This document shows, in pieces, positions 60,898-64,000 of a stretch of 64,000 bases of DNA. Numbering within the stretch: the stretch's first letter is position 1; each line of letters opens with the position of its first letter. The notes below the pieces were generated by a model. That model saw only the letters and a list, made by a program, of their open reading frames with translations, did no database searches and was not told where the DNA came from. Position numbers and translations under genes: made by a program. This DNA is from Mucilaginibacter tolerans (GTDB lineage: Bacteria > Bacteroidota > Bacteroidia > Sphingobacteriales > Sphingobacteriaceae): positions 1 to 64,000 of the forward strand of contig NZ_JAUMKB010000023.1 of the NCBI RefSeq assembly GCF_030519375.1, written 5' to 3'.

Positions 60898-61488
60898 ATG
60901 AGAGAGCCAATCGAATCATATCATACTGATGATGTTTTATTGTTGCAGCAAATAGAACAAGGCAGTAAGCATGCATTTAATGTATTGTATGAAAAGTATT
61001 GGGAGAAAGCTTATTCTGAGGCCTATAAACGTTTAAAAGATGCAGATCAGGCTAAAGATATAGTTCAGGAAATATTCACCCATATCTGGCTCAAAAAAGA
61101 AAGTCTCCATATTAATAATTTACCAGCTTATTTGAACGTCGCCGTACGTAATAAGGTATTCAAATTGATTGAAAAGCAGAAACTCATCCATCCATTCTTT
61201 GATATCCTTGAGGATATGCCTGCAACACATCAGCAGGCTGACAATAATTTGCTTTGGAAAGAGTTTTTAACATCCTACGAAGCACTTTTAGATGCGCTTC
61301 CTCCCAAGAGACAAATCATTTTCCGTCTACACTTTCAAAATGATTTACCGACCAAAGACATTGCGGCAAAATTAGGGGTCACCAGAAAGACAGTTCAAAA
61401 TCAGCTCGGGAAAGCTATTGAAAAATTAAAAGTGTCATTATTACCCTTCCTTATTTTGTTGATCTTTTTATTGCAGGATATAGACTGA
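60898..61488 (+). CDS. ECF sigma factor (Bacteroidota PUL type)
   Basis: A 196-residue extracytoplasmic-function sigma factor. Region 2 is AFNVLYEKYWEKAYSEAYKRL and KDIVQEIFTHIWLKK (about 28-70). Region 4 is ALDALPPKRQIIFRLHFQND and TKDIAAKLGVTRKTVQNQLG (about 130-170). A hydrophobic C-terminal tail (LLPFLILLIFLLQD) is common in this subfamily. With FecR directly downstream it should switch on the susC operon when the porin signals substrate. Confidence 0.93.
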   Translation: MREPIESYHTDDVLLLQQIEQGSKHAFNVLYEKYWEKAYSEAYKRLKDADQAKDIVQEIFTHIWLKKESLHINNLPAYLNVAVRNKVFKLIEKQKLIHPFFDILEDMPATHQQADNNLLWKEFLTSYEALLDALPPKRQIIFRLHFQNDLPTKDIAAKLGVTRKTVQNQLGKAIEKLKVSLLPFLILLIFLLQDID

Positions 61489-61578: not shown

Positions 61579-62571
61579 ATGGACAAGCAATATTTTCTCG
61601 AACTGCTGCATAAATACCTTAATGATGAAGCAACAGATGAAGAGCAACAGTTCTTAGTAAAATATTACGACTTGTTTTCTGCTGAACCGGACGTTATTTC
61701 CTTATTGAGCGATGAGCAAAAAGAGAAATTAAAAAAAGACATACACTCCTCAATTTGGGAAAATATTGATGAGCATATCAATGCCGACAAAAAAATAGTA
61801 CCCTTAAAGGCCTGGTTCTTAAGAATTGCTGCTGCGGCTGTAATTATAGGTATTTGTGGCATAGGGTTTTTATTTTTACGTAATAAACCGGTTATAAAGC
61901 CAACCGCGTTAAACGCAGTCCATAAGCAAAAACCCAACTTGTTGGTTATTCTTCCTGACGGGAGTAGGGTAATCATAAGTTATGGTAGTAAACTTACCTA
62001 CGCTTCATCTTTTGATGGTTTAGCAAAACGCGAAGTATATCTGACAGGTGAAGCCTTTTTTGATATAAAACACGACAATTTAAAGCCATTTGTTGTACAT
62101 ACCGGCAAGGTGGAAACAACCGTATTGGGTACGGCATTTGATGTTAAGGCTCTTCCCGGCGATAAGACCATAACAGTAACCGTTACAAGAGGTAAGGTGA
62201 AAGTCAGTGATCATAATAGACTCCTGGGTATAATTATCCCTAATCAGCAGATTACTTTTAATAAGCAAAAATCTATTTCGACGCAAAGTAGCATAGATGC
62301 CAAAACCTATACGATTTGGACGGCGCAGGATAATTTGTATTTTGAAGATTTAAGTTTTGGTGAAGCTGCTAAGGTATTGGAAGAGCGGTTTAAGGTTAAA
62401 ATATTATTTACGGACCAGCTTATTCAATCAAAACATTTTACGTCTACTTTCGATAAGTCTGCAAGCCTTGATCAGGCGTTAAAAAGCATTTGTGAGTTCA
62501 ATGATGCCTCTTATTCTTACGATAAAGAAAGAACTACAATAACCATCAGCAGTAAATCTCAAACCAATTAA
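61579..62571 (+). CDS. FecR-family anti-sigma factor
   Basis: A 330-residue inner-membrane anti-sigma factor. Residues 1-70 are the cytoplasmic sigma-binding region (FLELLHKYLNDEATDEEQQF). The membrane helix is at about 76-96 (FLRIAAAAVIIGICGIGFLF). The periplasmic FecR domain shows LPDGSRVIISYGSKLTY and REVYLTGEAFFDIKHDNLKPF. The C-terminal DUF4974 part (YFEDLSFGEAAKVLEERFKV) receives the signal from the SusC STN domain. It follows the sigma gene by 90 bp. Confidence 0.94.
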   Translation: MDKQYFLELLHKYLNDEATDEEQQFLVKYYDLFSAEPDVISLLSDEQKEKLKKDIHSSIWENIDEHINADKKIVPLKAWFLRIAAAAVIIGICGIGFLFLRNKPVIKPTALNAVHKQKPNLLVILPDGSRVIISYGSKLTYASSFDGLAKREVYLTGEAFFDIKHDNLKPFVVHTGKVETTVLGTAFDVKALPGDKTITVTVTRGKVKVSDHNRLLGIIIPNQQITFNKQKSISTQSSIDAKTYTIWTAQDNLYFEDLSFGEAAKVLEERFKVKILFTDQLIQSKHFTSTFDKSASLDQALKSICEFNDASYSYDKERTTITISSKSQTN

Positions 62572-62582
62572 ACTTAAAATAT

Positions 62583-62654
62583 ATGACGAAAAATTACTTC
62601 ACAATCGCAAATGGAGTTTATTCCAAAGAAAGCCTGAACGGTTCTCCAACATAA
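62583..62654 (+). CDS. Possible 23-codon peptide between fecR and susC
   Basis: An ATG 11 bp after the fecR stop opens 23 codons (MTKNYFTIANGVYSKESLNG and three more residues) ending within the A-run that starts the leftward terminator. It could be a leader peptide or chance. Only its position and tidy composition support it. Confidence 0.2.
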   Translation: MTKNYFTIANGVYSKESLNGSPT

Positions 62655-62700
62655 AAAACCCCCCGGAATCATTTTCTAAGAAAGTGAAATCCAGAGGGTT
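62653..62700 (-). terminator. Leftward intrinsic terminator between fecR and susC
   Basis: Read on the minus strand, AACCCTCTGGA pairs with TCCGGGGGGTT (11 bp with G-T pairs) and an inner TCACTTTCT / AGAAAATGA extends the stem. It is followed directly by TTTTTT. The plus strand has no T run after the hairpin, so it acts only on a minus-strand transcript. No minus-strand gene is present here. Confidence 0.7.
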
Positions 62701-62717
62701 GCTATTGCTACTCGACG

Positions 62718-62729
62718 GCAATCGATTGC
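62718..62729. promoter_or_regulatory. 12-bp palindrome in the susC leader
   Basis: GCAATCGATTGC is a perfect palindrome, 69 bp before the susC ATG. It lies within the stretch covered by the candidate antisense RNA, where it would form a hairpin, or it may be a protein site. Confidence 0.4.
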
Positions 62730-62797
62730 ATTAGCCAAAGTGTTTTAAATTTTAACATTCAATCGAAGACATTAATCACTTAAAACAAATTAAAATT

Positions 62798-64000
62798 ATG
62801 AATTTTTCTATAATTCTGGCAGGGCTGCGGCATTTTATTAAGTATCCGCTAAGATTTCATCTGCCAATCGACTCAAATATTAAACAATTCATGAGAATCG
62901 GGATAATTTCAATATTCATATTAGCTACTTCAATTCCTGTATTTTCTGCGACGCCAGCAAAAAGCCAAACAATTGAACAGGTAGCAGTAAACATTACACT
63001 TAAAAATGAATCGCTGGTAAAAGCTTTTCATAAAATCGAATCGCAAAGCCCTTTTCATTTTATGTATCGCAATGAGGATGTGAAGGATGTCCGTAACCTG
63101 GAAATTACGGCCAGCAATCAATCCCTTGCGGTATTCCTGAAAACCATCTTGTCAAATACTTCGCTTAAATTCAGGCAAATTGATAACCAGATATTAATTA
63201 CAAAATCAAATCCCGATAAAATTGCGGCAGATGGGAAAACGGATGCAGCTAACGATGGCATAGTAGCCTCCAAGGGTGTAATTAAAGGAACAGTGACCGA
63301 CGCAAAAGGCGGTCCTCTGCCGGGTGTTACTGTTAAGCTGGACGGTGTTGTTTCGCTAAATAAAGCAACTGACGTTAATGGGATTTATAGTTTTGCCAAT
63401 TTACCGGCTGGTAACTACACGCTGACTTTTACATTTGTCGGTTATAAAACAGTAACCAAGACAATAACATTAGGCGAAGATCAGGAGAGAGTTGTAGACG
63501 CGGTATTAGCTGAAACTACAAATAACCTTGATGAGATTATTGTTACCGGTTACGGCACGCAGAAAAAGAGAGAAGTAACCAGCGCCATCACATCTATAAA
63601 TGCAGCGCAATTTAATAAAGGTAATATTAGCGATGTTTCACAATTGCTGCAGGGTAAAGTACCCGGCCTTTCTATAGCCCGTCCTGGAGGCGACCCTAAT
63701 GGGGGCTTTGCCATTCGTTTGAGAGGGCTTTCTACCATCGGGACTAATACACAGCCTCTGATTGTAGTTGATGACCAGGTTGACGTGGATATTAATACAA
63801 TCGATCCGAATGATATCAAAAGCATCGATGTGCTTAAGGACGGATCGTCCGCTGCAATTTACGGTACACGTGGTTCTGCCGGGGTAATCATTATTACTAC
63901 CAAAACCGGAAGAAAAGGTACCTCAAAGTTTACCTATAACGTTTCTGGTACCGCTGAAACACCAGCGAAATTTACCCAGCATATGAATGCTGCGCAATTC
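62798..64000 (+). CDS. SusC/RagA-family TonB-linked porin with STN domain (partial, runs off the window)
   Basis: ATG at 62798 opens 401 codons without a stop to the window end. Residues 1-58 are a long leader typical of SusC proteins (hydrophobic RIGIISIFILATSIPVFSA, cleavage after KSQ). About 62-130 is an STN (secretin/TonB N-terminal) domain that signals to FecR (VNITLKNESLVKAFHKIESQ). About 150-235 is a carboxypeptidase-like domain (IKGTVTDAKGGPLPGVTVKL). From 245 comes the plug (LQGKVPGLSIARPGGDPNG, SIDVLKDGSSAAIYGTRGSA). It should import the oligosaccharides released by the PUL enzymes. A SusD gene is expected beyond the window. Confidence 0.95.
   Translation, partial: MNFSIILAGLRHFIKYPLRFHLPIDSNIKQFMRIGIISIFILATSIPVFSATPAKSQTIEQVAVNITLKNESLVKAFHKIESQSPFHFMYRNEDVKDVRNLEITASNQSLAVFLKTILSNTSLKFRQIDNQILITKSNPDKIAADGKTDAANDGIVASKGVIKGTVTDAKGGPLPGVTVKLDGVVSLNKATDVNGIYSFANLPAGNYTLTFTFVGYKTVTKTITLGEDQERVVDAVLAETTNNLDEIIVTGYGTQKKREVTSAITSINAAQFNKGNISDVSQLLQGKVPGLSIARPGGDPNGGFAIRLRGLSTIGTNTQPLIVVDDQVDVDINTIDPNDIKSIDVLKDGSSAAIYGTRGSAGVIIITTKTGRKGTSKFTYNVSGTAETPAKFTQHMNAAQF

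Follow-up and report, generated by a model that had tools for sequence, protein, structure and literature searches.

Gut Bacteroides are known to have antisense RNAs associated with PULs, and what these RNAs do is still under debate. DonS and the PUL-associated cis-antisense RNAs of Bacteroides were reportedly described by Cao et al. in 2016 (J Bacteriol 198:2410). The number of such RNAs in B. thetaiotaomicron was given as 10 and later as 32 (PMC7366714, PMC10994844), the members of the DonS family measure 78-128 nt (PMC7366714), and one PUL antisense RNA of Bacteroides represses its PUL (PMC10994844). In Flavobacterium psychrophilum, 287 antisense transcribed regions are reported and the sequence TAnnTTTG is the -7 promoter box, found at -12 to -5 (PMC9723704). 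This non-gut member of the Bacteroidota and its TAnnTTTG box provide a second point of comparison for the locus described below. The antisense RNAs of F. psychrophilum differ from it in being ascribed mostly to imperfect termination and non-canonical initiation, in a text that draws no tie to fecR-susC gaps (PMC9723704).

The DNA analyzed here, called the window, is the whole stretch of 64,000 nucleotides. An earlier note on its sequence had seen in it a PUL of the Sphingobacteriaceae type with a possible DonS-like architecture. The host fits this description, being a Mucilaginibacter: a search with fecR gave M. flavidus as the nearest named ortholog (85% identity), followed by M. gossypii (78%) and Daejeonella (47%). 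The PUL occupies the right end of the window and combines enzymes of families GH3, GH39, GH2 and GH97 with sigma, anti-sigma and receptor genes. These comprise, all on the plus strand, an ECF sigma factor with Sigma70_r2 and r4 domains (60898..61488), a FecR anti-sigma factor with FecR and FecR_C domains (61579..62571) and a SusC/TonB-dependent receptor with Plug and CarbopepD_reg_2 domains (62798..64000), which runs past the end of the window and is the presumed target of the antisense RNA proposed below. The susC counterpart in locus L291 is an ORF of 1125 aa, and a 534-codon ORF that follows susC occupies the usual place of susD, an assignment made by position. The gap between fecR and susC is 226 bases long.

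This gap resembles the Bacteroides DonS loci in what it would encode, namely a short, divergent RNA that lies antisense to a susC-homologue leader, with presumed repression of the PUL in cis. The strand and the place of such an RNA correspond here to a leftward terminator and a box at the susC start, both known from gene anatomy alone. Unlike DonS, the hosts are Mucilaginibacter and its relatives, the terminator adjoins fecR and the promoter box would, as proposed here, lie over the start of susC; the likeness described is one of anatomy. Neither the window nor any of 16 related loci matched a covariance model of Rfam 15 at the gathering score.

Leftward terminator between fecR and susC

The minus strand of the gap carries the hairpin AACCCTCTGGATTTCACTTTCTTAGAAAATGATTCCGGGGGGTT (plus-strand positions 62657-62700; minus strand 62657..62700), with a folding energy of about -20 kcal/mol, directly 5' of a T6 tract (minus strand 62653..62658, A6 on the plus strand). 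This confirms, at 62653-62700, the earlier observation of a strong hairpin followed by T6 on the minus strand only: the plus strand of the gap contains neither a T-run after the hairpin nor a strong terminator. The only minus-strand ORF of at least 40 codons in the gap (62599-62721, exactly 40 codons, TTG start) spans the hairpin itself. No gene is therefore present there that needs a leftward stop, and the orphan character attributed to this terminator was borne out. A simple terminator scan of the window did not list the leftward hairpin, probably because it takes an uninterrupted stem with a loop of 3-8 nt and the stem in the window is long and interrupted. Between 62640 and 62810, the minus strand folds better than its shuffles (z -3.3, 2/200 as good), and so does the plus strand (z -3.0, 0/200 as good). 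Since both strands behave in this way, folding alone leaves the strand open and it is the T-run that picks the minus strand.

A short ORF, MTKNYFTIANGVYSKESLNGSPT*, follows fecR on the plus strand (62583..62654), its stop running into the A6 tract. It is kept in the orthologs, the Daejeonella counterpart reading MKKRLPP*. Such a mini-ORF, often beginning MKK.. or MRK.., is present in 23/23 gaps of the genus whose terminator is preceded by 70 nt or more and in 55% of all genus gaps, against 31% of shuffles. Its leader is similar to the susC start region. A proline before the mini-ORF stop was considered as a signal and dropped, its frequency not being clearly above that of shuffles.

Conservation of the structure in orthologous gaps

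Nine distinct orthologous gaps, the window included, were gathered from Mucilaginibacter and Daejeonella by a DNA search and a fecR search whose records are partly shared. The A-run (A6-8) and the hairpin are retained in all nine. Read on the minus strand, the hairpin stem CCCTCTGA/TCAGAGGG becomes CCCTCCGGA/TCCGGAGGG and CCCGTAGA/TCTGCGGG in orthologs, both sides changing together, with compensatory replacements of T-A by G-C, of T-A by A-T or C-G, and of G-C by A-T. A second hairpin of the predicted antisense RNA lies to the right of the first (minus strand, 62701..62735) and is built on a TCGA..TCGA core. The core TCGATTGC.GTCGA is kept, being altered in Daejeonella only, and the outer stem covaries (GCTAA/TTAGC, GCTTTG/CAAAGC, GCTT/AAGC and TGTT/AACA). 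These paired changes in both hairpins argue that the gap encodes a structured nucleic acid and not a random palindrome.

Several other repeats were noticed in this region. The palindrome GCAATCGATTGC (62717-62730), whose core CAATCGATTG is invariant in the Mucilaginibacter orthologs, lies inside the second hairpin and could double as an operator. A LacI-type operator reading of the CAATCGATTGC palindrome was set aside, the extended motif occurring only once in the genome and belonging to the second hairpin, and no regulator is claimed. Just before susC, the inverted repeat TGTTTTAAATTTTAACATT..ATTAATCACTTAAAACA (62741-62786), also conserved in orthologs, may be a sense promoter region or a third hairpin. 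At loci L087, L071 and L059, with susC oriented rightward, inverted repeats of 11-13 bp flank the A-run and hairpin, so that the terminator would sit within a second stem. As a general feature this outer repeat was rejected, only 7/74 exceeding the 95% level of mis-paired controls.

Survey of the genus Mucilaginibacter

In 31 genomes of the genus, the positions of FecR C-terminal domains led to 92 fecR-susC gaps, in which a terminator was counted when its hairpin reached -12 kcal/mol or better. A leftward terminator was found in 73/92 gaps (79%), as compared to a rightward one in 2/92. Dinucleotide shuffles of the same gaps gave 5/368 leftward (1.4%) and 0/368 rightward, and in ordinary gaps between co-directional genes of these genomes, 29 in all, three terminators were found in each direction. 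Paralogs are not independent of one another; the counts obtained after collapsing similar gaps (57/70 leftward, 2/70 rightward) agree with the full ones. The conservation of the hairpin between related fecR-susC gaps, on which the antisense proposal had been made to depend, thus extends from the orthologs to most paralogous gaps of the genus.

When TonB-receptor genes were found independently of fecR, the leftward terminator preceded 2/24 of those without an upstream fecR and 6/6 of those with it. The terminator tracks the upstream fecR, and the feature therefore belongs with susC genes under sigma/anti-sigma control. Some fecR-linked receptors (L027, L032, L062, L066 and L069) form a sub-class, for the most part with the start MKIRFTLILFF, that has neither the leftward terminator nor the start-codon box described below. 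For the terminator, this sub-class provides an internal contrast.

A candidate promoter box across the susC start codon

The motif CAAAnnTA recurs at the susC start codon; read on the opposite strand it is TAnnTTTG, the -7 promoter box of Bacteroidota. Its offset from the ATG is -3 in 44 loci, -7 in 15, -8 in two and -9 in one, and it is nearly absent elsewhere in the 110 bases around the ATG. A perfect box occupies the start-codon zone in 62/90 loci, as opposed to 3/205 control gene starts. In the -3 class the ATG lies within the box, so that the second codon is forced to begin with TA; a Met-Tyr start is found in 44/92 receptors as compared to 2/205 control genes. In the -7 class it is the ATG that is shifted by four bases, the box staying in place (CAAATGTATG, CAAAAGTATG, CAAATTTATG). 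A translation signal would follow the ATG; a box that remains fixed when the ATG moves points instead to a DNA element. The sequence TAnnTTTG also exceeds expectation about 2.7-fold in front of ordinary genes of the genus (50 versus 18) and is therefore a working box in Mucilaginibacter.

The copy in the window, TAATTTTA (minus strand, 62791..62798), is a candidate -7 box of the antisense promoter. It falls in position class -7 and overlaps the A of the susC ATG. It is imperfect, matching TAnnTTTG at 5/6 positions, and is weak in this copy; each ortholog of the window has one or the other of two 5/6 forms. Of the non-redundant antisense boxes, 0/44 have a TTTG spaced as a -33 element, ordinary boxes having it in 9/50 cases, so that the antisense promoter would be of a -7-only type or need help. 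A scan for the canonical promoter TTTG(18-22)TAnnTTTG returned nothing convincing, the -7 box alone being recurrent. The proposed novelty in this anatomy, as read from the DNA, is a box for an antisense promoter that straddles the start codon of susC.

Predicted antisense RNA and its distribution

Taken together, the box and the terminator delimit in the window a predicted antisense RNA of about 134 nt over the susC leader (minus strand, 62653..62786), which would start near 62786. When the start is placed five bases after the box and the end at the seventh T, the 52 loci with both signals yield predicted RNAs of 62-132 nt, with a median of 102. The DonS family range includes 49/52 of these predicted lengths; for the window copy the prediction is about 134 nt. 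As anatomy, the DonS-like architecture suggested for this PUL is thus supported, a conserved terminator and a candidate box being separated by a DonS-size distance. A literature search found no transcript data for Mucilaginibacter.

The pairing of box and terminator extends beyond the genus. It was found in ten Flavobacterium genomes that form one sequence cluster, in one Sphingobacteriales bin, in one Chitinophagales bin and in several further families of Bacteroidia; Daejeonella and Arachidicoccus have the leftward terminator without a perfect box. Of the gaps from outside Mucilaginibacter, 45 distinct ones measure 100 nt or more; the terminator is present in 12/16 of those with the box and 8/29 of those without it. 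Gaps shorter than 100 nt from outside the genus have neither signal, save for the box in 1/48.

Alternative explanations

A chance hairpin in an A-rich leader would owe what plausibility it has to the fact that loose terminator criteria find a match in one third of shuffled minus strands. The fall of this background at -12 kcal/mol, to be set against the 79% observed, and the pairing that orthologous hairpins keep through double changes make such an accident extremely improbable. The hairpin might instead act on the plus strand of the fecR-susC transcript, for example as a processing or stabilizing stem-loop setting the fecR:susC ratio. This reading draws on the folding of the plus strand, which is likewise better than that of shuffles, on the short ORF that precedes the hairpin in many gaps and on the lack of a rightward terminator between fecR and susC. 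It is nevertheless unlikely, because the A-run, which recurs as a minus-strand T-run, does not lie where a plus-strand terminator would need it, and because the start-codon box is left unexplained. Moreover, A.C mismatches of the window stem on the plus strand become G.U pairs on the minus strand, and control rightward terminators are without a minus bias (15 plus-type versus 11 minus-type). Wobble asymmetry across the gaps favors the minus strand as well, with 156 minus-type against 48 plus-type, a modest excess over the 2.2:1 that shuffles give from composition. The test of G-U versus A-C by strand (66 loci versus 8) was abandoned as a decisive argument, shuffled gaps showing that it reflects mostly base composition, and is retained as weak support.

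Somewhat less improbable, though still unlikely, is that the start-codon box does drive antisense transcription but that this transcription has no regulatory role, the terminator merely keeping the noise out of fecR. Weak noise may account for the majority of antisense transcripts in bacteria, as discussed in PMC7366714, the box could be tolerated without being selected, and the -33 element is missing. Against this stand the position of the box, which holds when the ATG moves by four bases, its rarity at other gene starts (3/205) and its presence at fecR-linked susC genes and not at other receptor genes. Fixed place, rarity elsewhere and linkage to fecR together look like selection for the box itself.

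Proposed mechanism and significance

The preferred interpretation, which is reasonably probable on the strength of these sequence features, is that the gap in the window encodes a short DonS-type cis-antisense RNA over the susC leader that likely damps susC and the PUL in cis. From a -7-type promoter that spans the start codon of susC, RNA polymerase would set out along the minus strand, transcribe leftward through about 100-135 nt of the susC leader and stop at the hairpin-T6, short of fecR. The resulting RNA would be complementary to the 5' leader of susC, falling just a few bases short of the ATG. Its most likely effect would be a lowered expression in cis of susC, and of the PUL, in the absence of the glycan or when another is preferred to it, through pairing with the leader, recruitment of a nuclease or collision with sense transcription. 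The antisense RNA would thereby add a second level of control on top of the switch formed by ECF sigma and FecR. Some PUL antisense RNAs of B. thetaiotaomicron correlate positively with their susC (PMC10994844), so that repression is not guaranteed.

By the same anatomy, soil Mucilaginibacter very probably make short antisense RNAs over most of their uptake genes controlled by sigma and anti-sigma factors. A phylum-wide form of this proposal is more tentative, and perhaps slightly more apt to fail than to hold: SusC receptors under ECF-sigma/FecR control with long leaders would carry an antisense promoter across the start codon and a terminator about 100 nt away as a second control layer, the Met-Tyr start or the four-base shift of the ATG being forced by this arrangement. 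The start-codon box would then predict which receptors have an antisense RNA, and mutations in it need alter the protein very little. PUL antisense RNAs as such were already known; what is new here is the wider range of the DonS-type anatomy and the proposed promoter box at the start codon. Should this anatomy lie ahead of the majority of fecR-linked susC genes in soil and water Bacteroidota, control by antisense RNA would be an old and general part of glycan choice.
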